Shown: positions 6,513 to 63,507 of the stretch, in pieces | Layout: every line of letters starts with the position of its first letter | How positions within the stretch are numbered: position 1 is the first letter of the stretch | Assembly (NCBI GenBank): GCA_036226585.1 | Contig: CP108997.1 | Coordinates: forward strand, 2,418,001 to 2,482,000 | From: Streptomyces sp. NBC_00708 | Lineage (GTDB): Bacteria > Actinomycetota > Actinomycetes > Streptomycetales > Streptomycetaceae | Direction of reading: 5' to 3' | DNA length: 64,000 nt | The notes under the pieces: model-generated | Seen by the model: the letters and a program-made list of their open reading frames with translations, nothing else | Told to the model about the DNA's origin: nothing | Database searches by the model: none | Position numbers and translations under genes: made by a program

Positions 6513-8213
6513 GTGCCGGCCGGAGCCGGCGGGCGGGGGTGGCCCGGGGACCATCCCGAGCTTGCCCTCTTCCTCTGTCTCGCCCTCGGCTACCTCGTGG
6601 GGAAGCTCCGCGTCGGCCCCATCACGCTCGGCGGCATCTGCGGAACGCTGATCGTCTCGCTGCTGATCGGTACCCGGCACGTCACCGTCGACGACGACGT
6701 CAAGACGGTGTTCTTCGCCCTGTTCATCTTCTCGCTCGGCTATCTGGCCGGGCCGCAGTTCTTCGCCAACCTCAACCGGCGCAGCCTCCGCTTCCTCGCG
6801 CTCTGCCTGATCGAGCTGGTCTGCGTCCTCGGTATCGCCTTCGGGCTGGCCAAGGCGTTCGACCTGGACGTGGGGACCGCGTCCGGCATCCTGGCAGGCG
6901 CCGCGACGGAGTCCGCCGTGGTCGGTACGGCGACCGAGGCCATCGGCAAGCTCGACGGGCTGACGTCCGCCCAGATCACCCAGTACCAGGGCCACGTCGC
7001 CACCGCGTACACCGTCTGCTACCTCTTCGGCCTGGTCACCATCGTGCTGTACACCAGCCAGATCATGCCGATGCTGATGCGCATCAAACTGGCGGACGCC
7101 TCCCGCGAGCTGTGGGAGAAGATGCGCGGCGGCGCCCGCGGCCTGGAGGCCGACGAGCGGGAGGCGCTGCCCGGCACGGTGGGCCGTACCTACCTGGTGA
7201 CCCTGGCCGACGGCCTCAGGATCGGTGAGCTGAAGGCCGTACGGGCGGGCAGGGTCACCGTCGAGGGCGTCAAGCGCGGCAGCAAGCTGCTCACCCCCTC
7301 CCCCGGTCTGGAGCTGACCCTGAGCGATCTGGTCCAGCTGGTCGGCCGGCGCTCCTGGATCATCGAGGCCGGCCGCGAGATCGGACCCGAGACTCCCTCG
7401 GTGCCGGGCCTCGACACCCCGCTGGCGACCCGGCAGGTCGCGGTGACCGAGAAGGCCACGGCCGGCTCCACCATCGCCCAACTGGAGCGGGACCACCCCG
7501 AGTTCCTGAAGGACGGGGTCTACGTCACCGATGTGCTGCGCAACGACCAGCATCTGCCCGCCTCCGCCGAGACCACGGTGCAGCGCGGCGACGTGCTCAC
7601 CCTCGTCGGTGCGCGGGCGGGCCTGAACAAGCTGGTGGCGAAGATCGGCGCGGTCGTGAAGAACGACGCGACGGACTTCATCTACCTGGGCTTCGGCATC
7701 GTGGCGGGCTCGCTGCTCGGACAGGTCGTGGTCCGGTTCGGCGACATCCCGATGTCGCTCGGCACCGGTGGCGGCTGCCTGGTCTCGGGGCTGCTCTTCG
7801 GCTGGTTCCGCTCCCGCAAGCAGACCTTCGGGGCCTTCCCGCCGCAGGCCGCCAACACGCTCAAGGACCTGGGCCTGGCCGTCTTCATCGCCTGCACCGG
7901 CCTGACCGCCGGACCGCAGGCCTGGCCGCTGCTGAAGGAGTACGGCGCGCTGCTCCCGTTCGCCGGGATCGCCATGGTCCTCATCCCCGCCACGGTCTCC
8001 CTGATCGTCGGCCTGAAGCTGCTCCACATCGAGAAGCCGCTGCTGATCGGCGCCATCGCGGGCCAGCAGTGCTCGACCCCCGCGATCACCTCCATCACCC
8101 AGGTGGCGCAGAGCTCCGTACCGCTGCTCGGCTACACGATCACGTACGCGCTCTCGAACTTCCTGCTGCCCCTCACCGGCCCCGTCCTCGTCGGTGTCCT
8201 GGGATCCGGATGA
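6513..8213 (+). CDS. aspT: Aspartate:alanine exchanger, AspT family
   Basis: About 566-residue inner-membrane antiporter of the AspT/YidE family. It has N-terminal hydrophobic segments starting at HPELALFLCLALGYLVGKL, a central pair of RCK_C/TrkA-C-like cytoplasmic domains (roughly residues 200-380), and a C-terminal set of spans including GGGCLVSGLLFG. AspT imports aspartate and exports alanine. The next gene encodes aspartate 4-decarboxylase, so the pair can run a proton-motive decarboxylation cycle. The start is uncertain: GTG 6513 is the nearest in-frame start before the conserved HPELALF and has only a weak ribosome site. No clear promoter was recognised upstream. Confidence 0.86.
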   Translation: MPAGAGGRGWPGDHPELALFLCLALGYLVGKLRVGPITLGGICGTLIVSLLIGTRHVTVDDDVKTVFFALFIFSLGYLAGPQFFANLNRRSLRFLALCLIELVCVLGIAFGLAKAFDLDVGTASGILAGAATESAVVGTATEAIGKLDGLTSAQITQYQGHVATAYTVCYLFGLVTIVLYTSQIMPMLMRIKLADASRELWEKMRGGARGLEADEREALPGTVGRTYLVTLADGLRIGELKAVRAGRVTVEGVKRGSKLLTPSPGLELTLSDLVQLVGRRSWIIEAGREIGPETPSVPGLDTPLATRQVAVTEKATAGSTIAQLERDHPEFLKDGVYVTDVLRNDQHLPASAETTVQRGDVLTLVGARAGLNKLVAKIGAVVKNDATDFIYLGFGIVAGSLLGQVVVRFGDIPMSLGTGGGCLVSGLLFGWFRSRKQTFGAFPPQAANTLKDLGLAVFIACTGLTAGPQAWPLLKEYGALLPFAGIAMVLIPATVSLIVGLKLLHIEKPLLIGAIAGQQCSTPAITSITQVAQSSVPLLGYTITYALSNFLLPLTGPVLVGVLGSG

Positions 8214-8271
8214 CCGGCTCCCCCGGCGCCACCACCGTCACCCTCGACCACTGACCAGCGGGAGCACGGAC

Positions 8272-9927
8272 ATGCCCAAGGAGACCCTCGGCCGCGCGCA
8301 GATCCACGCGTACGCCCAGCTCAGCCCGTTCGAGCTGAAGGACAAGTTCATCAGCATCGCCCAGGCGGAACAGAGCGGCAAGCCCGGCCAGAAGGGGAAG
8401 ACGACCCGGGTCATGCTCAACGCGGGCCGCGGCAACCCGAACTGGGTCGCCACCGGCCCCCGCGAGGCGTACCACGCGCTCGGCTACTTCGCGATCGAGG
8501 AGTCCCGCCGGGTCTGGACGGCGGACAACCTGGGCGGGATGCCGGAGGAGGCGGGCTGCGCCGAGCGCTTCGCCCGCTTCACGCGTACGCGCCCGGGGCT
8601 GCCCGGCATCGAGCTGCTGAAGGCGTGCGTCGACCTGGCGGTCAAGCGGTTCGGCTTCACGCCCGACGCCTTCGTGCACGAGCTGGCGGACTCCTCGATC
8701 GGGGACAACTACCCGGTGCCGGGGCGCATCCTGCCGCACGTCGAGCAGATCGTACGGGGGTATGTCACGGACGAGATGTTCGACCACCGGCCGCCGGAGG
8801 GGCAGCACCTCAGCCTCTTCGCGACCGAGGGCGGCACCGCCGCGATGTGCTACATCTTCGACTCGCTGCTGAAGAACGGCATCCTGCGCCGGGGCGACCG
8901 GATCGCCCTGATGGTGCCGGTGTTCACGCCGTATCTGGAGATCCCGGAGCTGGACACGTACGGCTTCGACGTCGTGCACGTCGAGGCGAACCTGTTCACC
9001 GAGACCGGGGTGCGGCAGTGGCGCTATCCGCCGGAGGAGATCGCCAAGCTCGCCGATCCCTCGGTGCGGATGGTCTGCTGCGTCAACCCGAGCAACCCGC
9101 CCTCGCTCGCGCTCTCCCCGCAGGTCGCCCGGCAGATCGTGGACATCGTGGCCGGGCAGAACCCGAACCTGATCGTCGTGACGGACGACGTCTACGGGAC
9201 CTTCGTCGAGGGCTTCCGCTCGCTCGCCGCCGACCTGCCGCGCAACGCGCTGCTCGTGTACTCCTACTCCAAGCACTACGGGGCCACCGGCTGGCGGCTC
9301 GGGGTCATCGGGCTGCACGACGACAACGTGATCGACGACCTGCTGGCCGCGCAGGGCGCCGAGGAGAAGGCGCGGCTGAACAAGCGGTACGGGTCGCTCT
9401 CCCTGGAACCGGAGCGGATGCGGTTCATCGACCGGCTGGTGGCGGACTCCCGGCAGGTGGCGCTCAACCACACGGCGGGCCTGTCGCTGCCGCAGCAGGT
9501 GATGATGGCGCTGTTCTCGCTGTTCGACATGCTGGACGAGGGCCAGGAGTACAAGCTGCGTATCCGCTCCCTCGTGCAACGGCGCCTCGATCTGCTGCTC
9601 GAAGGCGCGCAGATGAAGATCTCCGAGGACCCGAAGCGGGCCGCGTACTACATCGAGCTGGACCTGCTGGCGGAGGCGGAACGCACCCTGGGCAAGGAGT
9701 TCGCCGCCTATCTGGAGGCCAACTACGAACCCGTCGACCCGCTGTTCCGGCTGGCCGAACAGACCTCCGTGGTGCTGCTGAACGGGGGCGGCTTCGACGG
9801 ACCGGAATGGTCGGTGCGGGTGTCCCTGGCCAACCTCGACGACCTGGACTACCTGAAGATCGGCCACCAGCTGCGGGTCGTCTTCGACGAGTACGCGCGG
9901 GAGTGGCGGGCCGCCCAGGGCTCCTAG
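8272..9927 (+). CDS. aspD: Aspartate 4-decarboxylase / aspartate transaminase (AspD)
   Basis: 551-residue PLP enzyme of the fold-type I aminotransferase superfamily, matching bifunctional aspartate 4-decarboxylases (L-aspartate to L-alanine + CO2). The PLP lysine lies in YSYSKHYGATGWRLG, with upstream NPSNPPS and DDVYGTF motifs typical of the family. The ATG at 8272 has GGAG eight bases upstream. It lies 58 bp after aspT: the exchanger supplies aspartate and removes alanine while intracellular decarboxylation consumes a proton. The stop codon shares the CTAG palindrome with the stop of the convergent GntR gene, giving a 4-bp tail-to-tail overlap. Confidence 0.92.
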   Translation: MPKETLGRAQIHAYAQLSPFELKDKFISIAQAEQSGKPGQKGKTTRVMLNAGRGNPNWVATGPREAYHALGYFAIEESRRVWTADNLGGMPEEAGCAERFARFTRTRPGLPGIELLKACVDLAVKRFGFTPDAFVHELADSSIGDNYPVPGRILPHVEQIVRGYVTDEMFDHRPPEGQHLSLFATEGGTAAMCYIFDSLLKNGILRRGDRIALMVPVFTPYLEIPELDTYGFDVVHVEANLFTETGVRQWRYPPEEIAKLADPSVRMVCCVNPSNPPSLALSPQVARQIVDIVAGQNPNLIVVTDDVYGTFVEGFRSLAADLPRNALLVYSYSKHYGATGWRLGVIGLHDDNVIDDLLAAQGAEEKARLNKRYGSLSLEPERMRFIDRLVADSRQVALNHTAGLSLPQQVMMALFSLFDMLDEGQEYKLRIRSLVQRRLDLLLEGAQMKISEDPKRAAYYIELDLLAEAERTLGKEFAAYLEANYEPVDPLFRLAEQTSVVLLNGGGFDGPEWSVRVSLANLDDLDYLKIGHQLRVVFDEYAREWRAAQGS

Positions 9928-10794: not shown

Positions 10795-12582
10795 ATGCCC
10801 GAGTTCATGCCCGCGGCCCCGTCCGGCGCCCGGTCCCCGATGCACGGCTTCCCCACCATCTGCACGCCCCGCGGCCCGGTCCCCGAGGCCGCGCCCCGCT
10901 GGAACCCCCAGCGCTCCAGCTCCATGCCCTCGCACCGCTACCGCTCCGCGTACGACCGTGTCGCGGTCCCGCTGACCGGGCGGAGCTGGCCGCAGGCCCG
11001 TATCGAACGGCCCCCGCTGTGGGTGCCGGTGGACCTGCGGGACGGCAACCAGGCGCTGGCGGAGCCGATGGACACCCCGCGCAAGCGACGGATGTTCGAT
11101 CTGCTGGTCGCGATGGGCTTCAAGGAGATCGAGGTCGGCTATCCGTCGGCGAGCCGCACCGACTTCGACTTCGTACGCCACCTGGCGACCGGCGGGGCCG
11201 TCCCCGACGACGTCACCGTGGTCGTCTTCACCCCCGCCAGGGCGGACCTGATCGAGCGGACCTTCGAGTCCGTGGCGGGCCTGGACCGGGTCGTCGTCCA
11301 CCTCTACATCGCGACCGCGCCCGTCTGGCGCGAGGTGGTCCTGGGCCGCGACCGGGCCGGGGTGCACGGCGTGGTGCTGGAAGCCGCCCGGCAGATGGAC
11401 CGGCTGGCGCGGGCCAGGCCCGGCGCGGACATCCGGTTCCAGTTCTCGCCCGAGGTCTTCAACCTGACCGAGCCGGACTACATCCTGGAGATCTGCGACA
11501 GCCTGACCGGGCTGTGGGACGCCTCGCCCGACCGGCCGGTCGTCCACAACCTGCCGGCCACGGTGGAGATCGCCACACCCAACGTCTACGCGGACCAGAT
11601 CGAGTACATGCACCGCAACCTGGCCCGGCGGGACTCGGTGATCCTCTCCGTGCACCCGCACAACGACCGCGGTACGGGCGTGGCCTGCGCGGAGCTGGCG
11701 GTGCTGGCGGGGGCCCAGCGGGTGGAGGGCTGCCTGTTCGGCAACGGGGAGCGCACCGGCAACGTCGACCTGGTCAACCTGGCGCTCAACCTGCACGCCC
11801 AGGGCGTCGACCCGATGATCGACTTCTCGGACATCGACGAGATCCGCCGCACGGTGGAGCACTGCAACCGGCTGCCGGTGCCGCCGCGCCATCCGTACGG
11901 CGGGGACCTGGTGTACACCGCGTTCTCCGGCACCCACCAGGACGCCATCAGCAAGGGCTTCGCCCGCCGCGCGGACGGGGGCTCCGAGCTGTGGGAGGTC
12001 CCGTACCTGCCGATCGACCCGGCCGACGTGGGGCGTACGTACGAGGCCGTCATCCGGGTCAACTCGCAGTCGGGCAAGGGTGGCATCGCCCATCTGCTGC
12101 GCACCGGGCATGGCGTGGACCTGCCGGCCGGGATGCGCGCGGAGTTCTCCCGCACCGTCCAGGCGGCGACCGACGACAGCGGTCTGGAGGCGACCGGGAA
12201 GGACCTGTGGAACCTGTTCGAGGCGGCGTACCTGGTCCCCGGGCGGGACGGCGGGGTGGCCCTCACCTCCTGGTCCGCGCAGAGCGGTCCGGCCGGTGAG
12301 CACCGCTTCGTCTGCACCTTGCGGGTGGATGAGCGGGAGGGCGATTACGAGGGGACGGGCACCGGCCCGGTCACGGCGTTCGCGGACGCGCTGGCGGCGG
12401 CCGGGGTGGCGGCGGCCGTCCTGGACCTGGTGGAGCAGGCGCCGGACGGGACCGGGACGACGACCGCGTACGCGCGCTGCCGCGTCGGTGGCGAGGAGCG
12501 CTGGGGCGCGGGCCGGGACGCCTCGGGCGTGGCCGCGTCGGTGGCGGCGGTGCTGTCGGCGGTGAACCGGGCGCGGGGGTAG
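10795..12582 (+). CDS. leuA: 2-isopropylmalate synthase LeuA
   Basis: About 595 residues. The enzyme joins acetyl-CoA and 2-oxoisovalerate in the first step of leucine synthesis. The HMGL-like TIM barrel carries DLRDGNQAL (divalent-metal Asp), HPHNDRGTG (metal-binding HxH region) and [12 protein letters not shown]. The C-terminal ~110 residues form the LeuA allosteric regulatory domain. ATG 10795 is preferred because GAGAAGAG lies just upstream; ATG 10774 falls within a hairpin. The N-terminal ~40 residues before SSMPSHRY are Pro/Ala-rich. An upstream leucine leader peptide indicates end-product control. It may be a second leuA paralogue, since the sequence departs noticeably from the main streptomycete LeuA as I remember it. 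Confidence 0.92.
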
Positions 12583-26697: not shown

Positions 26698-27393
26698 ATG
26701 ACCGCATGGCTGCCCGACGAAACGACCCTGCACCACGGCGACGGACCCTGTCTCGGCGCCGGACACGAGGCCGATCTCTTCTCCGCCCTGCGCGAGCCCG
26801 CGCGGCACCAGACGGCTCAGGTGACCGCGGCCGGCGCCGCGTGGCTGGCCGGGGCCACGGCGTACCCGCGCAGCGCCCTGGCGCAGTGGGAGTCGCGCCC
26901 GACGGCGCCCGGGGTCCTGCCGTGCGGCACGGCGTTCGACGTGGTGAACGTCCCGACGCTGTTCGGGCGCCGGATGCTGGAGCACCTGTGGGCCGACGGA
27001 CCGGGGTCCGGCCCGGTCGCCTCGCACCGCGGCCGGATGCTGCTGTTCGCCACCCCGGGCACCGCCCAGCGGCTGCCCTCGCTGCTGGACTGGGAGGAGT
27101 GGGGCGGCGCCCCGCAGAGCCAGGAGGGCGGCGGTACGAAGGTGCCCCCGCTGCTCTGTCACGGCACCGGGGACGCGGTGACGGTCCCGCCCCTGACCTG
27201 CGGCGAGGGGTATACGGGGCCCCGCTGGCTGGTGGCCCCGGACACGCGCAGCCCCTGGCTTCCGGGCCCGGACGTACTGCTGTGGGCCTGTGTGCGGGTG
27301 GCCCGGTCGGCACCCGCTCCGACGCCCCGTATTTCGATTTTTCCTCTCACCGATCAGGGTGCTAAGGTCTACGACGTCAGCAGGCGCCGCTAG
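26698..27393 (+). CDS. Prim-pol-like protein (degenerate bifunctional primase/polymerase N-domain)
   Basis: 231 residues similar in pattern to the N-terminal bifunctional DNA primase/polymerase domain proteins that are frequent in Streptomyces (AAGAAWLAG..., GTAFDVVNVP..., GRMLLFATPG). The usual catalytic acidic pair is not obvious: the strand reads FDVVNVP, so enzymatic activity is doubtful. The ATG at 26698 follows a long low-signal leader. The stop codon TAG lies at 27391-27393 inside the tRNA-Lys gene, so the last residues VSRRR are encoded by tRNA flank and acceptor stem. This ending is probably a chance read-through or an eroded 3' end. Confidence 0.65.
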   Translation: MTAWLPDETTLHHGDGPCLGAGHEADLFSALREPARHQTAQVTAAGAAWLAGATAYPRSALAQWESRPTAPGVLPCGTAFDVVNVPTLFGRRMLEHLWADGPGSGPVASHRGRMLLFATPGTAQRLPSLLDWEEWGGAPQSQEGGGTKVPPLLCHGTGDAVTVPPLTCGEGYTGPRWLVAPDTRSPWLPGPDVLLWACVRVARSAPAPTPRISIFPLTDQGAKVYDVSRRR

Positions 27394-27457
27394 CTCAGTT
27401 GGTTAGAGCAGCTGACTCTTAATCAGCGGGTCCGGGGTTCGAGTCCCTGGCGGCGCA
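27384..27457 (+). tRNA. tRNA-Lys(CTT), copy 1
   Basis: 74-base cloverleaf: acceptor GCGCCGC/GCGGCGC, D-arm GCTC...GAGC, anticodon stem GCTGA/TCAGC with loop CTCTTAA (anticodon CTT), T-arm CGGGG TTCGAGT CCCTG (one non-canonical pair), discriminator A. CCA is not encoded. A TAAGGT -10 lies at 27363-27368, 15 bases upstream. It is identical to copies at 37568 and 43612. Confidence 0.97.
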
Positions 27458-27463
27458 CAGACG

Positions 27464-37567: not shown

Positions 37568-37641
37568 GCGCCGCTAGCTCAGTTGGTTAGAGCAGCTGAC
37601 TCTTAATCAGCGGGTCCGGGGTTCGAGTCCCTGGCGGCGCA
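37568..37641 (+). tRNA. tRNA-Lys(CTT), copy 2
   Basis: Identical 74-base sequence to copy 1, anticodon CTT, no encoded CCA. The own -10 TATTAT is at 37548-37553, 14 bases upstream. The 5' flank GTCAGCAG is shared with the other copies. Confidence 0.97.
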
Positions 37642-37647
37642 CAGACA

Positions 37648-43611: not shown

Positions 43612-43685
43612 GCGCCGCTAGCTCAGTTGGTTAGAGCAGCTGACTCTTAATCAGCGGGTCCGGGGTTCGAGTCCCTGGCGGCGCA
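43612..43685 (+). tRNA. tRNA-Lys(CTT), copy 3
   Basis: Identical 74-base sequence to copies 1 and 2. A -10-like TAGAGT lies at 43591-43596, 15 bases upstream; the flank GTCAGCAG is shared. Confidence 0.97.
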
Positions 43686-43692
43686 CGCACAG

Positions 43693-54791: not shown

Positions 54792-55799
54792 ATGCGCCCC
54801 GACACCCCTGCCGACCACATCACCGAAGCCGAGCGTCTGCTCCGCACCGCGGCGCAGTACCCCGAGGACCACGAACCGCTGCTCCTCCAGGCCGCGGCCC
54901 ACCTGGAACTCGCCGGTGACCGCGCCCGTGCCACGACGCTCTACGACGAACTGCTCAACGCCCCCGGCACCGAGCACCCGCACCTGGTGAAGGCCCTCAG
55001 CGCCGCGAACCTCTGGGAGTACGGCCACGAGGCGGAGGCCCGCGCGCTGATCGACGGCGTCCGCGTGGCTGCCCCGCAGGAGGCGGCGCCGTGGGAGATC
55101 GCGGCCGAGACGCTGGAGGCCCACGACGAGCTGGAGGCGGCCCACGACCTCTTCTCCACGGCCCTGCACCTGCTGATCGCCCCGGGCGAGGAGGTCCCGT
55201 ACGCGACCCAGTCGCTGCTGACCGGACGCCACCGGGTGCGCCGGCTGAGGGGCGTCCCGCACGACGCCTGGGACGAGCTGGCGGACACCCTGCACACGGC
55301 GGCGGTCCCGCTGGACGAACTCCACGACCCGAAGCGCCTGTGGTCGCTGGGCTCGTCGGACCCGGGCGAGCTGCGCGCCGAGATCACCCGGCTGCGCGCC
55401 GAACTGGGCACGTACCGCACGGCGTTGTCGCGCCCGTTCCCGGTGGCGGTGCTGCACTGGCCGGCGGACGAACTGCGCGAACTGCTCACCGCCTACCCGA
55501 GCCTGGGCAGCGAGTACGCCTCGCACCCGGACCACCTGGCCCGCCTGGAGACGGCCCTGCGCGACCTCCAGGCGGCGGGCACCCCGAACCTCGGCATCGT
55601 CCGGGGCACGGTCCCCTCCTACGAGGCCTTCGCCGCCTCGGAAGCCGCCTCCCCGGCGGACCCGGACCTGCTCCCCCAGTACGCCACGACCCTGGCCGCC
55701 CGCGGGCGCGCGGTGCCGTGGCCCCCGGCGAAGAGCGGGGAGTGCTGGTGCGGGTCGGGGGATTCGTACCGGGAGTGCCATGGGGGGCGGGTGGAGTAG
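54792..55799 (+). CDS. Helical-repeat protein with C-terminal SEC-C zinc motif
   Basis: 335 residues. Residues ~10-170 are TPR-like helical pairs (LLLQAAAHLELAGDRARATTLYDEL), followed by a helical region and a proline-rich end with a SEC-C metal site CWCGSGDSYRECHG (residues ~319-332). SEC-C motifs bind zinc and mediate protein contacts, as in SecA. The molecular role is unknown. TACGGT lies 8 bases before the ATG, consistent with a leaderless transcript, and no Shine-Dalgarno is seen. Confidence 0.85.
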   Translation: MRPDTPADHITEAERLLRTAAQYPEDHEPLLLQAAAHLELAGDRARATTLYDELLNAPGTEHPHLVKALSAANLWEYGHEAEARALIDGVRVAAPQEAAPWEIAAETLEAHDELEAAHDLFSTALHLLIAPGEEVPYATQSLLTGRHRVRRLRGVPHDAWDELADTLHTAAVPLDELHDPKRLWSLGSSDPGELRAEITRLRAELGTYRTALSRPFPVAVLHWPADELRELLTAYPSLGSEYASHPDHLARLETALRDLQAAGTPNLGIVRGTVPSYEAFAASEAASPADPDLLPQYATTLAARGRAVPWPPAKSGECWCGSGDSYRECHGGRVE

Positions 55800-56690: not shown

Positions 56691-57146
56691 GTGATGAGTA
56701 CCGCCAGACCTTCCTCCCCCGCCGTGTCCGCCCGGATGAGTCGCCAGGCCAGCCGCGACACCGCGCCCGAGGTGGCGGTCCGGAAGCTGTTGCACGCGTC
56801 CGGTTACCGATACCGCCTCAACGAGCGGGTGCCGCACATGTCCCGGCGGACGATCGACATCGCCTTCACCCGGGCCAAGGTGGCCGTGTTCCTGGACGGA
56901 TGCTTCTGGCACGGCTGCCCCGAGCACGCGACGCAACCGAAGTCGAACGCCGAGTGGTGGCGGCAGAAGCTCGATCGCAACATGGCGCGGGACGCGGAGA
57001 CGACGGCGCACCTGGTGGCCGAGGGGTGGACGGTCCTGCGCTTCTGGGAGCACCAGGCTCCGGTCCAGGTCGCGGAGAAGGTGGCGGAAGTCGTCGATCA
57101 GGAGAAGTCCGCGAAGCGGACAGGGCGGGGATGCGGGGATCAGTGA
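56691..57146 (+). CDS. vsr: Vsr-family (very short patch repair-like) endonuclease
   Basis: 151 residues with the Vsr fold: MSRQASRDTAPEVAVRKLL, the catalytic acid in TIDIAF, then FLDGCFWHGCPEH, KSNAEWWRQKLDRN and GWTVLRFWEHQ. Vsr nicks T:G mismatches that arise from deamination of 5-methylcytosine, and relatives in restriction systems may act as nucleases. GTG 56691 or ATG 56694; AGGAG at 56678-56682. It is coupled (GTGA overlap) to a methyltransferase homologue, consistent with a mismatch-repair or restriction role. No other nuclease is seen in the cluster. Confidence 0.92.
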   Translation: MMSTARPSSPAVSARMSRQASRDTAPEVAVRKLLHASGYRYRLNERVPHMSRRTIDIAFTRAKVAVFLDGCFWHGCPEHATQPKSNAEWWRQKLDRNMARDAETTAHLVAEGWTVLRFWEHQAPVQVAEKVAEVVDQEKSAKRTGRGCGDQ

Positions 57147-58099
57147 GCGAGTTGCGGTTCGTGGACGTGTGCGCGGGGGCCGGCGGGTTGGCCCTCGGGC
57201 TGGAGCAGGCCGGGTTCGATCCGGTGCTGCTGTTGGACAGGAAGGCGGTGGCCTGCGAGACGCTGGGTCTGAACCGGCCGCACTGGAAGGTCCTGGAGAT
57301 GGACCTGCTGGACTTCGTCCCGGACGAGCACCCGCAGACGTACGACGTCGACCTCCTGTCGGCCGGCCTTCCTCGCGTGAAGTCGAGCGCCACGGCGGCC
57401 AGGGCGGAGACGGACGAGGAGGAGCGGCTGCTCAGGGCGGCGGTCCTCCTCGCCCATTCGATCCAGCCGCGTGCCGTGATCCTGGAGAACGTGCCGGGGC
57501 TGGTCGGCGCGGGTGCCTTCGAGCCCCTGCGCGGGTTCATCCGGGAGGAGCTGGAGCACCTCGGGTATCGGCTCCACTGGTTCGTCCTGAACGCGGCGGA
57601 CTACGGGGTGCCGCAGGACCGGAAGCAAGGGGTGCTCGTCGCTCTCAAGGAACCGTACGGCGATCGCTTTCGTCCACCGACGCCCACGGTGAAGGAGCAT
57701 GTGCCGGTGGGTGTGGCGCTTCGGGCGTCCATGGCCTCCCGTGGATGGAGCGGGGCGGATGCCTGGGCGGCTCGGGCCGTCTCCGTGGCGCCGACATTGG
57801 TCGGCGGTTCCGACAACCGCGGGGGTGCCGATCTGGGCCCGACGGGCACGAAGGCCGCCTGGGCGCGGATGGGCGTCAACGGCGGGGCGCTGGCGGACGA
57901 AGTTCCCGGTCCGGAGACGGCCGACGCCCCGGGGCTGATCAAGCTCACGGCCGCACAGGCGGCGCTGCTGCAGGGCTTCCCCACGGAGTGGCGCTTCGCG
58001 GGCCGGAAGACTGCTCGGTACCGGCAGATCGGGCATGCATCGCCACCGGCGGTGGGGGAAGCACTGGGGCTCGCGGTCGCGGAGGCGTTGCGTGGTTGA
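57143..58099 (+). CDS. C5-cytosine methyltransferase homologue lacking the catalytic cysteine
   Basis: About 318 residues. Motif I FVDVCAGAGGLALGLEQAG, motif VI ILENVPGL, motif VIII QDRKQGVLVAL and motif X RQIGHASPPAVGEALG are preserved, so SAM binding is likely. Motif IV, usually GGPPCQxFS, reads SAGLPRVKSS: the proline-cysteine pair is replaced and no nearby Cys exists. It should not catalyse methyl transfer in the normal way. The GTG at 57143 overlaps the vsr stop as GTGA; ATG 57131 is an alternative. It could be a DNA-recognition or regulatory subunit of the intact enzyme encoded next. Confidence 0.82.
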   Translation: MSELRFVDVCAGAGGLALGLEQAGFDPVLLLDRKAVACETLGLNRPHWKVLEMDLLDFVPDEHPQTYDVDLLSAGLPRVKSSATAARAETDEEERLLRAAVLLAHSIQPRAVILENVPGLVGAGAFEPLRGFIREELEHLGYRLHWFVLNAADYGVPQDRKQGVLVALKEPYGDRFRPPTPTVKEHVPVGVALRASMASRGWSGADAWAARAVSVAPTLVGGSDNRGGADLGPTGTKAAWARMGVNGGALADEVPGPETADAPGLIKLTAAQAALLQGFPTEWRFAGRKTARYRQIGHASPPAVGEALGLAVAEALRG

Positions 58100-58149
58100 G
58101 CACGCGTGGCTGTCCACGCACGAAGGTTAGTTGATCTTGAACGGCCGGC

Positions 58150-58155
58150 TACACT
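58150..58155 (+). promoter_or_regulatory. -10 element of leaderless methyltransferase transcript
   Basis: TACACT lies eight bases before the ATG at 58164, and no ribosome site is present, so translation probably starts on a leaderless mRNA. A TTAGTT about 17 bp further upstream may serve as -35. Confidence 0.6.
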
Positions 58156-58163
58156 TCAATCCC

Positions 58164-59402
58164 ATGACCCATGCACCTCGCCCACCCTTCCAACCTGCGG
58201 GTTTCCGCATCGTGGACTTGTTTGCCGGCCCCGGTGGCCTGGACATCGCCGCCACGATCATGGGAGTGGAGAGCATCGGGGTCGAGTGGGACGAGCCGAC
58301 GCGTGCCACGCGCGAGGCAGCCCTCCTGCGGACCACCGAGGTGAGGGACGTCGCCGCCGTGGGTCCGTGCGACCCGGAGGTGAAGGACGCGAATGTCCTC
58401 ACCGGCGGACCGCCCTGCCAGTCGTTCTCCGTGGCAGGCAACCGGGAGGGCCACAAGGCTCTGGAGGACGTGAAGCGGCTGGCCGGCTGCTTGGTCTCCG
58501 CGAGGGACCGCAAGTCCTTCGACTCCATTTGGGAAGAAGTCAAGCGCGAGACCGACTCCATGTCCGACGAACGCACGGGGTTCGTGCTCCAGCCCTTGCG
58601 CTGGATCATGGAGGCGAAGCTCAAGCGCAAGAGGCCCTACGACGTCGTGGTGCTGGAACAGGTCCCCACCGTGCTGCCGGTGTGGAAGCACTATGCCGAG
58701 CTGCTCAACGGCATCGGCTACGCGGCCAAGGCCCATGTCCTGCACGCCGAGGCATTCGGCGTCCCCCAGACGCGCAGGCGTGCCGTGCTGATCGCCCAGT
58801 GGGATCCGAAGAACACGAGGAGGGATGTGTACTTCCCCGAAGCGACCCACCAGCAGTACCGCAAGGGGGTCGAGCGCCTGCTGCCCACGACGCACGAGAC
58901 CCCGGCCGGCGATCCGCAGGACGGTGCCCTGTTCGCGCCGCCGAAGAACACCAAGGAGCCGTGGGTGTCGGTCGGCGACGCTCTCGCCGCCACCCGTCCC
59001 CGCGACTTCGTCCTGGTCTCCAACTACGGCTCCGGCGGCGACCCGAAGAACCGGGGCCGTCGCACCTCCGAGGAGCCGGCCGCAACGATCACCGGCAAGT
59101 TCCGTCGCAACCGGCTGTTCCTCCTGAAGGAGAACGATTCGGGCGAGAAGGAGGTCGGCGAGGAGCTGGACCGTCTCTCGCTCGAAGAGGGCGGGCTCCT
59201 CCAGTCGTTCCCGGCGCGCTACCCGTGGCGGTCCACCGATGTGGCCCAACAGATCGGAAACGCCATCCCGCCTCGTCTTTCCCTGCACATCCTGAGCGCC
59301 GCACTGCTGCGTGGGCAGCCGGAGGGCGATTGGTTCACCCGGCTCGCGGAGTGGAAGCCGCCGGTTCGCTCCACGGAGGTGGAGAGTTCCGAAGGGCCCT
59401 GA
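58164..59402 (+). CDS. DNA (cytosine-5) methyltransferase
   Basis: 412 residues with all key motifs: I FRIVDLFAGPGGLDIAA, IV LTGGPPCQSFSVAGNREG (catalytic Cys), VI VVLEQVPTVLP (EQV instead of the common ENV), VIII QTRRRAVLIAQ, a target-recognition region (~210-310), X QQIGNAIPPRLS. It transfers a methyl group from SAM to cytosine C5 at an unknown site, presumably to protect host DNA. ATG 58164 is used since TACACT lies just upstream. It follows the inactive homologue by 64 bp and ends in a shared hairpin with the convergent defence trio. Confidence 0.93.
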   Translation: MTHAPRPPFQPAGFRIVDLFAGPGGLDIAATIMGVESIGVEWDEPTRATREAALLRTTEVRDVAAVGPCDPEVKDANVLTGGPPCQSFSVAGNREGHKALEDVKRLAGCLVSARDRKSFDSIWEEVKRETDSMSDERTGFVLQPLRWIMEAKLKRKRPYDVVVLEQVPTVLPVWKHYAELLNGIGYAAKAHVLHAEAFGVPQTRRRAVLIAQWDPKNTRRDVYFPEATHQQYRKGVERLLPTTHETPAGDPQDGALFAPPKNTKEPWVSVGDALAATRPRDFVLVSNYGSGGDPKNRGRRTSEEPAATITGKFRRNRLFLLKENDSGEKEVGEELDRLSLEEGGLLQSFPARYPWRSTDVAQQIGNAIPPRLSLHILSAALLRGQPEGDWFTRLAEWKPPVRSTEVESSEGP

Positions 59403-59423
59403 CGCGGGCCTTCGGAACTCTCC
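59381..59423. terminator. Bidirectional terminator between the methyltransferase and DUF6339-like genes
   Basis: Perfect 15-bp arms GGAGAGTTCCGAAGG (59381-59395) and complement (59409-59423); the methyltransferase stop lies in the loop, and the minus-strand gene ends 2 bp beyond. Confidence 0.9.
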
Positions 59424-59425
59424 GG

Positions 59426-60316
59426 TCACTCCGCCGCGTCGTCCTCGGTCTTCTTTCCGCGCACGAGGGCTTCGGCGAAGAGTTCCGCGAAGTGCTCGGT
59501 GAGAGTGGCCACCGATTCCTCCGGCGCCCTCTCCTCGTCGGGCCCTTCCGGGAGTGCCCTTCGTGGCACCGCCGGTGCCCACTCCGCGTTCTCGATCCAC
59601 TGGGCCAACGACCGGCCGTCGCGTTCGACGTCGGGGGCCGTGACGTCGTACATGATCGTGGCTGCGGACGCGTTGACCGCCTTGACCAGGGCGTTGACTT
59701 CCCGGCCCGTACGTACAGTCCCTCGGACCATCAGGTCGACCAAGGCCTGCGCGGTCGGTCGGTGGTCGATCACGGAGAGACGCAGGGCGGTATTGAGCAT
59801 CTCCTGTTGGCCACATGCCGTCACTACCGGGCCGTAGTCGGAACCGTTCCGGTACAACTCCGCCGCCCACCACAGTCGGGCGAACGCCTGCGAGTCGGCG
59901 GGACCGCGAAAGCGCTTGGCCGTGACCTTCGGCGCCTCGCCCTTGCCGGGCTCCGTCGTATGCCTCCACACGACGTAGTCGGGCGCGACCCCCAGCGCCA
60001 GGTAGTTCCACAGCCTGCGGTCGGCCGCCTCCCGACGAGTGAGCCGCAGGGTCGCATGGAGCCGAGGAGCCAACCAGGCGTCGGCGGCGGTGACCTTCTC
60101 GTCGCGGAACGCGTGCTTGGCGTCGTCGACAAGATCGCGGACCGGCTGCAGCGCCCCCCTGGCCTCCTCCCCCGGCAGAGGTTCCGTGACCTTGTTGAGC
60201 GCTATGGCCGGGACGTTCTCCTTGCCGCTGAGCAGACCGTCGGTGATATAGCGGGCGGCGTCGAGGTCCGAGAGGAACGCCAGCCGCTCGGGCAGGAAAC
60301 TGGGCTTGTCGGTCAC
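59426..60316 (-). CDS. DUF6339-like protein of a methyltransferase/GHKL-ATPase defence cluster
   Basis: 296 residues, mostly alpha-helical, soluble, no enzyme motif I can identify. Visible segments are DLDAARYITDGLLSGKEN, WLAPRLHATLRLTRREAAD, LWNYLALGVAPDYVVWR and FARLWWAAELYRNGSDYG. From memory this resembles DUF6339 proteins that co-occur with C5-methyltransferases, Vsr and MutL-like ATPases. The GTG at 60316 overlaps the upstream stop as GTGA. Acidic C-terminus. It is the last gene of the minus-strand trio. Confidence 0.7.
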   Translation of the reverse strand: MTDKPSFLPERLAFLSDLDAARYITDGLLSGKENVPAIALNKVTEPLPGEEARGALQPVRDLVDDAKHAFRDEKVTAADAWLAPRLHATLRLTRREAADRRLWNYLALGVAPDYVVWRHTTEPGKGEAPKVTAKRFRGPADSQAFARLWWAAELYRNGSDYGPVVTACGQQEMLNTALRLSVIDHRPTAQALVDLMVRGTVRTGREVNALVKAVNASAATIMYDVTAPDVERDGRSLAQWIENAEWAPAVPRRALPEGPDEERAPEESVATLTEHFAELFAEALVRGKKTEDDAAE

Positions 60317-61305
60317 GCGTCGGCCTCCCGGTCGAGTCGGTCCAGACCCCGGACGGTCGCCGTCAGAGCCTTCGGCACTTCCGCCCTGCGCGTCGCGGCG
60401 TAATGGATGCGCGGCTGGAGTTCGGTCCATCCGGACGCGCCGGTCCTTCGGCCGTGGACTTCCCTGAGCGCGTCCTCCAACGGTCTGCCGGGCACAACGT
60501 CCGGCAGCATCTCGCGCAACACCTCGCCCCGCCAGTCCTGGGGGAAGAGCGGCGTGCCGTCGTCCTCGACCTCCAGGTCGCCGATGGCCGTGTGGAAGAC
60601 GGCCGTCCACACGTCGGTGCACATCTGGGCGATCAAAAGGTCCCGGACCAGGCTCTCGACCGCCGTGCCCTGGCCATCGACGAGTTCGGTGACACCCTCG
60701 AAGTCGGTGTTCACGTGCACGGTGGGCACCTCGCCGGAGGTGTCGACGGTCCACGGCACGTCCGCGAAGGGTCGCAGCCACTCGGGCCCCTCCCGGAACC
60801 CGACCTCGGACACCTCCAACTCCCGCTCACGCAGCGGCGCGTCGGACTTCAGGTCGACGATCCAGTCCTTCTCCGAGGCGGCGATCATGCGACCGCGCAC
60901 TCCGTCGACCGTGGCGATCACGTGCACGGTCATCGAGGCACGGTCGAGGTGGTCAGCCCGCCAGAGGTCCAGGTGGCCGGCCCACTCGCGGCCCCCCTCG
61001 GCACGAGGTTCGAGACACACTGTGGTCCGCGTGTTGGTGGCGCCCTCGGTGAGCACGACCACTACGGACACGTCGGACCAGGGCCCGTCGGGGGCGGTCG
61101 CGCGTCCGGGCACGGCGGCCGTGAGCGTCAACCGGGCCTTCTCCCAGTCGTCGCGCTCGGCCAGGCCCAGGGCCACCACCTGCTCGACGGTGGAGAAGGT
61201 CTTCGTGTCGAGCCGTTCACGAGCCTCCCCGGGGCCCCGGAGTTCGACAGCGGTCACCCGGAGCGTCACGGTGCCCGGAAGCCGCTGGTACGGATAGCCC
61301 CTCAT
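60313..61305 (-). CDS. Unknown protein of the defence cluster
   Basis: 330 residues, no recognised domain. The N-terminal half looks beta-rich (TVTLRVTAVELRGP, ARLTLTAAVPG, VSVVVVLTEG) like a C2- or CBM-type sandwich; the C-terminal half is mixed with VNTDFEGVTELVDG and IAQMCTDVWTAVFHTAIGDLE, plus WRGEVLREMLPD. Its ATG overlaps the GHKL-ATPase stop (ATGA) and its stop overlaps the DUF6339-like start (GTGA), so all three are made as a set and probably form a complex. Confidence 0.72.
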   Translation of the reverse strand: MRGYPYQRLPGTVTLRVTAVELRGPGEARERLDTKTFSTVEQVVALGLAERDDWEKARLTLTAAVPGRATAPDGPWSDVSVVVVLTEGATNTRTTVCLEPRAEGGREWAGHLDLWRADHLDRASMTVHVIATVDGVRGRMIAASEKDWIVDLKSDAPLRERELEVSEVGFREGPEWLRPFADVPWTVDTSGEVPTVHVNTDFEGVTELVDGQGTAVESLVRDLLIAQMCTDVWTAVFHTAIGDLEVEDDGTPLFPQDWRGEVLREMLPDVVPGRPLEDALREVHGRRTGASGWTELQPRIHYAATRRAEVPKALTATVRGLDRLDREADA

Positions 61306-63407
61306 GCCTGGCCTCCCTTGTCGGTCCCGAGTTCGACGATCAGACCGGTGAACACGGCCCGCACGGGGTGCGTGGACACGTCGGTCGTCGCCCTGAAGGT
61401 CGCCTTGCGGGCACCCGGCGCGAAATGCAGAGCCCCGTCGACGATTTCGCAGTTGTGAACGCCGACGAGCTGGGACCATCCCAGTACGGGGCGCGGACCG
61501 GAGCGCACGTCCAGCTTCGCCACGGGACTCGGTCGCGAGGAGTCGGCTCCGGCGGGGATCTTCACCTCTCCGGTGACGCACCACGCGCCGTCGGCGTCGA
61601 CGAAGGCATCGAGTTCCTCCAACGTCGGGAGCGCCGTCGGGCCGGCGGGGCGGGGCGACCGTTTGCCGCCCAGTGTCAGCTTCTTCCGGAGCCGCTCGGC
61701 CCCGCCCGACCGTTTCGCCCTGGGTACGGCGACGAGTTCGCGCACCGCCTTGTTGGTGTCGGTGGTGAGTTTGGCGATGCGACGGTATGCGGATGGCGAG
61801 TACAGCATCCGCAGCTCCTCCGTCTGCCCCCACTTGTTGTGCTCGGGCGGCTCGGAGGTCCGGAGGAAGACCTCTGCCGCGTCGGCGCCGAGGGCGTCCT
61901 CGCCCGCGGCGTGTCCCGCGAGCAGTACCGCCTGGAAGGCGTTGGTCCCCACGGGGAGGTCCCTGACCTTGGCCGTCCTGACGGTCATGCGATTGCCGCG
62001 CATCATGACCACGTAGTTCGGCTTGTCGTCGTCGGCGTCGTCGGCCTCGGTCACCAGAACGACGGCCCGATGCTCCGTGCTCTCCCTCCGCCCCGCGAGG
62101 GCGGGCACGTTGAGCGAAACGGTCGCCTCGGCCACTTGGCCGGACTCCGTCAGACGTTCCACGGTCGTGCCGTCGAGGAAGGCCTGCAGCGCACGCGTGC
62201 GTGAGGGCTGCGTGGTCCGGGGATCCACCCGCTCCTCCTCGATGATCTCCGTACCGTTGCGGAGGGTTCGCACGGATGCCTCCAGCAGCGGCCGCCGTGT
62301 CCTGCCCACGGTCATGGCCGCCCAGAAGTTTCGGCCGAGGGCCTGGACGAGGCGTTTGTGCATGCGGTGCACGCTGTCGTCGTCCTCGACACCGTTGCTC
62401 TCGGCATCGGGGTCGACGAGACTCGCCACGTCGTGGGCGCCCACGATCAGAAACGATGTGCCGGGTTCGTCGCTCTCCCGTGCGAGGTGGAGCCTCTCGA
62501 CCTTGTCCTCCTCGGCCCACCACGAACGCGCCACGTCCGAACTGTCGGCATCCGGGTCGGGGCGGCCGAACCAGGCGGGGCCCGCCCAGGGGCGGCCGTC
62601 CACTTCGCGCCAGGGAAGATCGAGCCGGCCGATGAGACGTCGCTCGGTACGCCCCTCGTGCGGCTCGGAGAGGGTGGAATTGATCAGGACGAGGCCGAGA
62701 CGACTCGTCGCCCAGAGCGTCGCCTTCCCGAGGCCGTACGACCCGCCCGCACCGCTCACCGATTTGTGGCTGTCGAGCTGGCGGCGCACCACTGCGGCGA
62801 ACCTGCCGGTCTCGTAGTCGTCTCCGGTCAGGCCCGAGGCGTTGTAGTCGTCGACGCGCAGCAGGACCAGTCGGTCGCGCTCGTACATGTCGCGCAGCCC
62901 GGCCGCGATGACCCGCCCGACCTTCTGGTCCTGGGACGCCGCCGACTCGTAGTGCGGGAGGAGTTCGTCCCAGCGGATCTCCTCCCGGAAGCGGGCCAGG
63001 GCCTCGCCCGTCAACTCGTGCAGCGTGTACCGCACGCGGACCGGTTGGTTGAGATCGAGACGCTCGTCGAGGCTGTTCTGCGTCGCCTCGCGTGCGAGCA
63101 CCTCGACGTCGGCCTCGAAGGCGAAAGCTGCGGCATTGCCGAAGTCGCGACCGCCGTCGGCGTATCCGGGACGGTGGTACCAGGAGACGGGGAGCCCGGC
63201 CAGGGCGTCCGATGTGCGGGTGTGAATCGTGCCGAGGTCGGTACCGAGAGCTTCCGCGATCTTGGCGATGGTCTCCGTGCGAGGTGTCGCCCGCCCGGTG
63301 ATCCAGGCCGATACCGCAGCCCGCGTCATCCCGATGCGGTCGCCGAGGTCGGCCTGACTCATGCCCGACTGCTTCAGTTGTCGGGCCAGCCAGGGGCCGA
63401 AATCCAT
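61302..63407 (-). CDS. XRE helix-turn-helix fused to GHKL (MutL/MORC-like) ATPase
   Basis: About 701 residues. An HTH (~1-60, MSQADLGDRIGMTRAAVSAW) is fused to a GHKL ATPase module: N-box LAREATQNSLDERL, then VDDYNASGLTG in the place of the DxGxG motif and SYGLGKATLWATS for the lid. The long C-terminal part (~350-700) is of unknown fold and has VVMMRGNRMTV and RTSEPPEHNKWG. MutL/MORC-type GHKL proteins are known in predicted restriction systems beside C5-methyltransferases. ATG 63407 opens directly on the HTH; GTG 63428 is an alternative. Two direct repeats upstream suggest autoregulation. Confidence 0.82.
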   Translation of the reverse strand: MDFGPWLARQLKQSGMSQADLGDRIGMTRAAVSAWITGRATPRTETIAKIAEALGTDLGTIHTRTSDALAGLPVSWYHRPGYADGGRDFGNAAAFAFEADVEVLAREATQNSLDERLDLNQPVRVRYTLHELTGEALARFREEIRWDELLPHYESAASQDQKVGRVIAAGLRDMYERDRLVLLRVDDYNASGLTGDDYETGRFAAVVRRQLDSHKSVSGAGGSYGLGKATLWATSRLGLVLINSTLSEPHEGRTERRLIGRLDLPWREVDGRPWAGPAWFGRPDPDADSSDVARSWWAEEDKVERLHLARESDEPGTSFLIVGAHDVASLVDPDAESNGVEDDDSVHRMHKRLVQALGRNFWAAMTVGRTRRPLLEASVRTLRNGTEIIEEERVDPRTTQPSRTRALQAFLDGTTVERLTESGQVAEATVSLNVPALAGRRESTEHRAVVLVTEADDADDDKPNYVVMMRGNRMTVRTAKVRDLPVGTNAFQAVLLAGHAAGEDALGADAAEVFLRTSEPPEHNKWGQTEELRMLYSPSAYRRIAKLTTDTNKAVRELVAVPRAKRSGGAERLRKKLTLGGKRSPRPAGPTALPTLEELDAFVDADGAWCVTGEVKIPAGADSSRPSPVAKLDVRSGPRPVLGWSQLVGVHNCEIVDGALHFAPGARKATFRATTDVSTHPVRAVFTGLIVELGTDKGGQA

Positions 63408-63465
63408 GCCGCTGTCCAACGTCACCACTCCTCGGCTGCCACGACGACCATGGGGCCACCGTACC

Positions 63466-63507
63466 CGAAATTTGACGCCGATCGATAGGCGACAACGAAA
63501 TTTGACG
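63466..63507 (-). promoter_or_regulatory. Paired 12-bp direct repeats upstream of the HTH-ATPase gene
   Basis: CGAAATTTGACG occurs identically at 63466-63477 and 63496-63507, exactly 30 bp apart, on the same face of the helix. The site is 38-100 bp upstream of the HTH-ATPase start and AT-rich against the background, suitable as an operator for the HTH domain. Confidence 0.7.

Follow-up and report, generated by a model that had tools for sequence, protein, structure and literature searches.

A cysteine-less C5-methyltransferase homologue within a putative composite DISARM-like/paraMORC-type defence island of Streptomyces

Genes and features of the locus

The window, that is, the whole stretch of 64,000 nucleotides of Streptomyces sp. 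NBC_00708 that was analyzed, carries toward its right end six genes in a convergent layout. V, M1, and M2 on the plus strand face the overlapping trio A, B, and C on the minus strand, and all six genes are present. The features are as follows.

56691..57146, plus strand: V, Vsr-family endonuclease, 151 aa (TIGR00632, 120.7 bits against a curated cut-off of 97.85; PF03852, 61.7 bits)
57131 (ATG) or 57143 (GTG) to 58099, plus strand: M1, C5-methyltransferase homologue with PC changed to PR (PF00145; PADLOC DruM2, 307.7 bits)
58131 (TTG) or 58164 (ATG) to 59402, plus strand: M2, intact C5-methyltransferase (PF00145; PADLOC PDLC03374, 624.3 bits)
59380..59430, no strand assigned: hairpin shared by the convergent units (fold -36.1 kcal/mol, z -6.8; equalled by 0 of 200 shuffles)
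59426..60316, minus strand: C, DUF6339 protein, 296 aa, all-helical model (PF19866, 46.4 bits against a cut-off of 23.2; PDC-M33C, 30.9 bits)
60313..61305, minus strand: B, Ig/E-set-like beta-sandwich plus helical C-terminal domain, 330 aa, matching no family
61302..63428, minus strand: A, N-terminal Cro/C1-type HTH plus GHKL ATPase, 708 aa (HTH_3, 52.2 bits; PADLOC PDC-M33A, 74.6 bits over residues 107-251)
63466..63507, no strand assigned: two direct repeats of 12 nt (CGAAATTTGACG) lying 30 bp apart, upstream of A; putative operator or promoter

The stop codon of V overlaps the GTG start of M1, and within the trio the overlaps are ATGA (A/B) and GTGA (B/C). An earlier note on this DNA had described two convergent units with one common terminator and an HTH-GHKL ATPase coupled to B and a DUF6339-like C; the single hairpin at the junction and the overlapping trio bear out both descriptions. 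It had also ended the system at position 63507, which proved too short: the other half extends to the right of the window, where genes for a GHKL/SF2 helicase, a UvrD-type helicase, DrmA, and DrmB lie divergent from A. The six genes may then constitute one half (methylation plus A-B-C) of a composite DISARM-like/paraMORC-type defence island of ~19.5 kb, a reading that is taken jointly with the mechanism proposed below and that, with it, has in our estimate an even chance of being right. The island looks like an anti-phage system, and phage defence is its function as predicted from sequence.

Three GHKL motifs of A, R-E-x2-Q-N-x2-D, D-x4-G-L, and G-x2-G-x-G-K, are invariant in 10 of 10 rows spanning Streptomyces, haloarchaea, and lactic acid bacteria. 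Upstream of A, a TTTGACA pair of similar spacing was recognized by eye in 8 of the 12 loci inspected; it is weaker in three and absent in one (L011). Through its HTH, A probably controls its own operon, A-B-C. No function for B or C emerged from fold searches, and the model of C (pLDDT 86) had no clear PDB match. A HEPN-like R-x5-H in C (R179/H185), although invariant in the 55-row alignment A2, was rejected as a candidate, being absent from the haloarchaeal, deinococcal, and lactococcal DUF6339 proteins.

Conservation and co-occurrence

Gene counts were made over 54 analysable orthologous loci, the relatives having been drawn from contig and genome searches whose samples are not exhaustive. 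All of these loci have A, B, and C, with B split between two frames in one of them; M2 is present in 52, V in 43, and M1 in 40, and a DrmA homologue is located close to A in 52. Among 295 sampled genomes of the genus, A was found in 65, and DrmB lies within 20 kb of it in 54 of those 65; M1-bearing genomes number at least 94 of the 295, with wide flanks taken for part of the genomes listed. Thus, the genes co-occur, as the note had supposed, rather than being scattered singly. An empty site could not be demonstrated by way of the GNAT flank, whose matches outside its own genome are short or of ~66-73% identity over a partial query.

The same counts bear on Vsr, which the note had named as the sole clear nuclease. 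The gene is indeed a Vsr gene by its profile score, but it was not detected in 11 of the 54 loci; consequently, Vsr is unlikely to be an obligatory restriction nuclease and was rejected as a requirement. It would rather be an optional partner, chiefly repairing T:G mismatches at M2-methylated sites.

M1 and the loss of the catalytic cysteine

The pairing of an intact with a catalytically altered methyltransferase, proposed in the earlier note, is upheld for both proteins. M2 retains the catalytic PCQ of motif IV (GGPPCQSFS). In M1 the motif reads GLPRVKS instead of G-PCQ-S, and P81 R82 is invariant in all 40 aligned rows (the window plus 39 loci), none of which has the catalytic Cys of an active enzyme. 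A short copy of M1 with His, at L027, was truncated and excluded from this alignment. M1 is under purifying selection, with dN/dS of 0.11-0.17 across seven comparisons. Given the invariant PR, together with these ratios, the change is neither a sequencing error nor recent decay. Genuine decay of M1 was observed at L045, where a remnant persists.

The note had regarded the inactive homologue as making this version unusual; in its context, the loss of Cys is actually the rule. The residue has been lost repeatedly, being absent from 79 of 82 M1-family proteins with a GHKL-B-DUF6339 context, compared with 2 of 40 in 37 genomes without detected A. The three exceptions (L209, L216, and L217) retain Cys despite the A-B-C context, and L204 has a Cys-less M1 in a genome without A. 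In the 37 genomes from which the 40 "solo" rows come, a search with the A profile matched none, 30 candidates being scored in each of the 13 largest lists; the same profile matched in 6 of 10 genomes of a wider search. A DUF6339 search matched in 0 of the 37 solo genomes but in no control genome either, and so carries no weight. A DISARM-only context, at first assigned to six rows, was discarded when A turned up in each of the six genomes (five times on the same contig), and these rows are counted in the A-B-C class in the final tally.

In 17 sister loci M1 forms a fusion with DUF6339 (C::M1). Of the 54 loci, 14 yielded no M1, one of them holding the decayed remnant, and so the protein is not indispensable to A-B-C. 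Judged by its sequence, M1 is a long-lived pseudoenzyme, and the loss of the catalytic residue with retention of the protein suggests that it is now probably reading DNA rather than marking it. This provides a clear phylogenetic contrast for a DNA methyltransferase retained in a non-catalytic job. No description of such a dead-methyltransferase association was found in the open-licence literature, outside which most subscription papers lie, and this is no proof of absence.

Models for the function of the island

Taken together, these results have led to a model, which we consider evenly balanced between right and wrong, in which one DISARM-like/paraMORC-type island marks self and recognizes what is unmarked. 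In this model, M2 would place 5-methylcytosine on a host motif as a self mark, as its intact motifs suggest. M1, which has kept the methyltransferase framework and lost the nucleophile, would act for the A-B-C complex as a reader that recognizes specific DNA sequences without catalysis. On contact of M1 with unmethylated sites in incoming DNA, A would close in an ATP-driven manner and, with B and C, grip this DNA, which would then be blocked or taken apart by DrmAB and the accessory helicases. This effector step is conjectural, since no nuclease was identified in A, B, or C. In addition, the DISARM genes may belong to a separate neighbouring system and not to the same machine.

A more specific and more tentative form of this model, somewhat likelier to be wrong than right, makes the dead C5-methyltransferase the specificity subunit of a MORC-type ATPase. 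It would be a site reader that directs a GHKL clamp to unmethylated foreign DNA and is joined to a DISARM helicase core; gripping and unwinding of the DNA would take the place of cleavage by a cognate restriction nuclease. More generally, the findings make it a testable question how a GHKL ATPase locates its DNA, which concerns the eukaryotic MORC proteins as well.

DNMT3L and the split bacterial C5-methyltransferases are models for a dead homologue that steers an active enzyme. By analogy, M1 could be an allosteric partner that steers or stimulates M2 within an otherwise R-M-like island, an explanation that we regard as doubtful. M1 and M2 usually lie side by side in the same direction, 16 of the 17 fusion loci and nearly all of the 54 loci contain an intact C5-methyltransferase, and in G863 and G789 M1 lies beyond DrmB yet adjoins a second intact methyltransferase. 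Nevertheless, M1 is one family throughout, whereas the intact partner is drawn from several methyltransferase families. In G051, G610, and G528, M1 lies beside DrmB without an adjoining methyltransferase, and the intact enzyme is located on the side of C. Furthermore, the fusions join M1 to DUF6339 and not to a methyltransferase, and the loci in which M1 was not detected keep M2.

It is also conceivable, though unlikely, that independent systems have gathered at one chromosomal hotspot (DISARM-like drmAB with helicases, a PDC-M33-like trio, and methyltransferases with Vsr), so that the linkage reflects inheritance and not one machine. The same TPR/SEC-C gene lies near the V side in 18 of 57 loci, and the convergent halves diverge unequally against L005 (dS 0.06-0.16 versus 0.31-0.51). 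A-B-C trios also occur on Lactococcus, Ligilactobacillus, and haloarchaeal plasmids, where drmAB is not annotated in the stretches inspected. However, this DrmB lineage is coupled to A nearly one-to-one (49 of 51 genomes), and A is kept both with a DrmA 60-98% identical to that of the window's island (28 loci) and with a diverged one of 36-38% (24 loci). Moreover, a Cys-less M1 occurs almost only in the A-B-C context.

Finally, it is very improbable that M1 is an enzyme with altered chemistry: it has retained the SAM motif and ENV, and every sequence of the aligned Streptomyces/Nocardia set has the Arg, but a second M1 lineage mostly has Ser, and several of its members have additionally lost both the GNA motif and the ENV Asn, so relaxed catalysis fits better than a new active site.

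Comparison with known systems

The A-B-C trio is a distant relative of PDC-M33, a three-gene PADLOC-DB candidate. The order GHKL / B / DUF6339 and the overlapping genes are shared, and PDC-M33C matches C with an E value of 4.4e-8. The match to A is confined to part of the GHKL domain, and PDC-M33B gave no match to B at E<=1, though B has the same gene place and a similar size. By comparison, the Lactococcus trio is matched by PDC-M33A, B, and C over nearly full length. The window's A also differs in its added HTH, and methyltransferases and DrmAB are attached to the trio.

ARMADA shares a YprA/DrmA-family helicase, its type II also having a GajB-like helicase, and is reported to carry a Vsr-type nuclease domain on its YprA helicase. 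It differs in having a PglX-like methyltransferase, and the main text of the paper on it does not mention GHKL or MORC (PMC12458937).

With DISARM, the island shares DrmA (PADLOC DrmA, 830.4 bits) and DrmB homologues (PADLOC DrmB, 230.1 bits; Pfam MZB, 33.7 bits) to the right of the window, as well as a C5-methyltransferase. M2 sits in the A-B-C half, outside the drmAB operon, and its score with a type II model is far above that with DrmMII (best 59.8 bits). The DISARM class genes are drmD or drmE; neither is among the 22 families that matched the 1588-aa protein, and for the UvrD-type protein the listing covered the best 25 of 50. A gene for the DrmC PLD nuclease was not found at the island (2.47-2.49 Mb), the PLDc_2 (PF13091) matches in the same genome lying at 3.00 and 3.88 Mb. 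DrmC is often missing from DISARM and appears non-essential (PMC9142583). Relative to DISARM, the extras are the HTH-GHKL protein A, B, the DUF6339 protein C, the GHKL-SF2 and UvrD-type helicases, the Cys-less methyltransferase, and Vsr.

The MORC/paraMORC restriction-modification clusters combine a GHKL ATPase with a C5-methyltransferase and Vsr and, variably, an SF2 helicase (Iyer et al. 2008, PMC2292703). All four are found in the island, and the note's allusion to MORC-like ATPases in restriction clusters thus corresponds to a kinship in gene content. If the model proposed here is correct, DISARM (DrmAB) and the MORC-type restriction clusters would be joined in one recurrent island.

Composition and conservation of the island

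Sequence and profile searches have established that the six genes described in an earlier note are real and lie where it had placed them:

56691-57146, plus strand: Vsr (V)
start 57131 or 57143, end 58099, plus strand: C5-methyltransferase homologue (M1)
start 58131 or 58164, end 59402, plus strand: second C5-methyltransferase (M2)
59426-60316, minus strand: DUF6339 protein (C)
60313-61305, minus strand: beta-sandwich protein (B)
61302-63428, minus strand: HTH-GHKL ATPase (A)

As the note had claimed, an ATGA overlap joins A and B and a GTGA overlap joins B and C, and the terminator thought to be shared by the two convergent units is seen as a strong hairpin at their meeting point. In addition, the GTG start of M1 is overlapped by the stop codon of V. 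The assignment of one altered and one intact methyltransferase also holds: M1 reads GLPRVKS where active enzymes carry PCQ, and the M2 motif is GGPPCQSFS. Upstream of A lie two direct repeats (63466-63507), and a TTTGACA pair with similar spacing was found by eye upstream of A in eight of 12 orthologous loci; these repeats are a possible operator of A's HTH.

The earlier note had proposed neighbourhood searches for conserved co-occurrence. With each A-bearing species represented by a single genome, the scan found 57 loci; 54 of these were analysed after L041 (a 3.9-kb contig) and the distant L057 and L058 had been left out, and homologues of A, B, and C occur together in 54/54. The A match is without the HTH part in a few of these 54 loci, and in L040, B is matched in two pieces and appears broken. 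M2 is present in 52/54 loci, V in 43/54, and M1 in 40/54, with all three found in 33/54. Individual loci vary: the M1 copy is truncated in L027 and lies on the other strand in L044; V is inverted in L040 and 5.7 kb away in L048, where M2 is also replaced by a different intact methyltransferase (L097 is the same locus). Genus-wide, A is found in 65 of 295 genomes, as one copy per genome.

Loss of the catalytic cysteine in M1

Within the M1 alignment, PR is invariant in 40/40 rows. The wider contrast rests on 122 M1-family ORFs with a profile score of at least 150, from the loci retrieved for this comparison. In a first classification, the motif residue was R in 48, S in seven, H in one, and C in one of the ORFs with A-B-C within 9 kb of M1; R in all 17 of the fusion class (sister loci in which C is fused to M1); C in both with the unfused sister GHKL2/B2 context; S in three, R in two, and A in one of a 'DrmAB only' class; and C in 38, R in one, and S in one of those with none of these contexts.

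The 'DrmAB only' class was merged into the A-B-C class, since A was later found in all six genomes: in five it lies 14-18 kb from M1 on the same contig, and in genome G856 it lies on a different contig. In three of these genomes (G051, G610, and G528), M1 adjoins DrmB and the C side holds the intact methyltransferase. G863 and G789 have M1 about 4 kb past DrmB, where it adjoins a second intact methyltransferase; the other one lies near C. A profile search for A in the 37 genomes behind the 40 rows without context gave no match in any. In the final count, Cys is absent in 79/82 M1-family ORFs in a GHKL-B-DUF6339 context, the exceptions being L209, L216, and L217, but in only 2/40 outside it (Fisher p 1.4e-25, uncorrected for kinship).

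A quick tree of this non-exhaustive sample, rooted on other intact methyltransferases and built without the motif columns, gives three Cys losses when regain is disallowed; its deep branches have only moderate support. The first covers 64 rows (R, one H), the solo row L204 among them, the second 16 rows (S, R, and A), and the third one solo row. Furthermore, dN/dS against seven orthologues is 0.11-0.17 for M1 and 0.15-0.32 for M2. Judged by its sequence, M1 is a conserved dead enzyme.

In L112 (genome G517; 7047-8372 and 11293-12234), a Cys-less M1 relative on a long branch and an intact one are separated by 3 kb; A was not found in this genome by profile search.

Divergence and surroundings

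Compared with locus L005, dS is 0.06-0.16 across the V-M1-M2 half (56691-59402), whereas it is 0.31-0.51 across the C-B-A half (59426-63428). This difference indicates that the two convergent halves have different histories, perhaps through exchange of halves at the shared hairpin. On the V side, a homologue of the TPR/SEC-C gene at 54792-55799 is found in 18/57 loci, and since it flanks differing island types, it points to a chromosomal hotspot. Elsewhere in the window, three tRNA-Lys(ctt) genes lie 6-10 kb apart (27384-27458, 37568-37642, and 43612-43686), a triplet that may mark tandem integration events.

A possible mechanism

The direct observations on the island are its gene content, conservation, and coupling, the Cys-less M1, purifying selection, and the fusion. 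C5-methyltransferases whose catalytic Cys has been replaced can bind DNA more tightly. In the model proposed here, M2 would mark self DNA, and M1 would read unmarked sites and pass them to A-B-C, where closure of the GHKL ATPase would grip the DNA. DrmAB and the two helicases, which form a DISARM-like half of the island to the right of the window, would then act, and Vsr would repair deaminated 5mC. The DISARM core reportedly binds 5'-overhang DNA and is damped by methylation, and DrmC is often absent and apparently non-essential (PMC9142583); an island without DrmC is consistent with that account.

Relation to known systems

Haloarchaeal, Lactococcus, and Ligilactobacillus plasmids also carry the A-B-C order, close to methyltransferases for cytosine or adenine or to other genes of defence systems, and the GHKL motif residues are invariant in ten diverse A proteins. 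DUF6339 is matched by 85 plasmid records, most of them from Listeria; on a Listeria innocua plasmid (L235, 8010-8569), the DUF6339 gene is split, does not have its two partner genes beside it, and is apparently a remnant.

The Lactococcus and Ligilactobacillus trios match all three components (A, B, and C) of PDC-M33, a candidate system in PADLOC. In the window's trio, A and C match, whereas B gave no PDC-M33B match in the PADLOC profile search; these matches identify the trio as a distant relative of PDC-M33. Taken together, the island is a new composite of known kinds of system, and its strongest new point is the loss of a methyltransferase nucleophile that is context-dependent, repeated, and retained.
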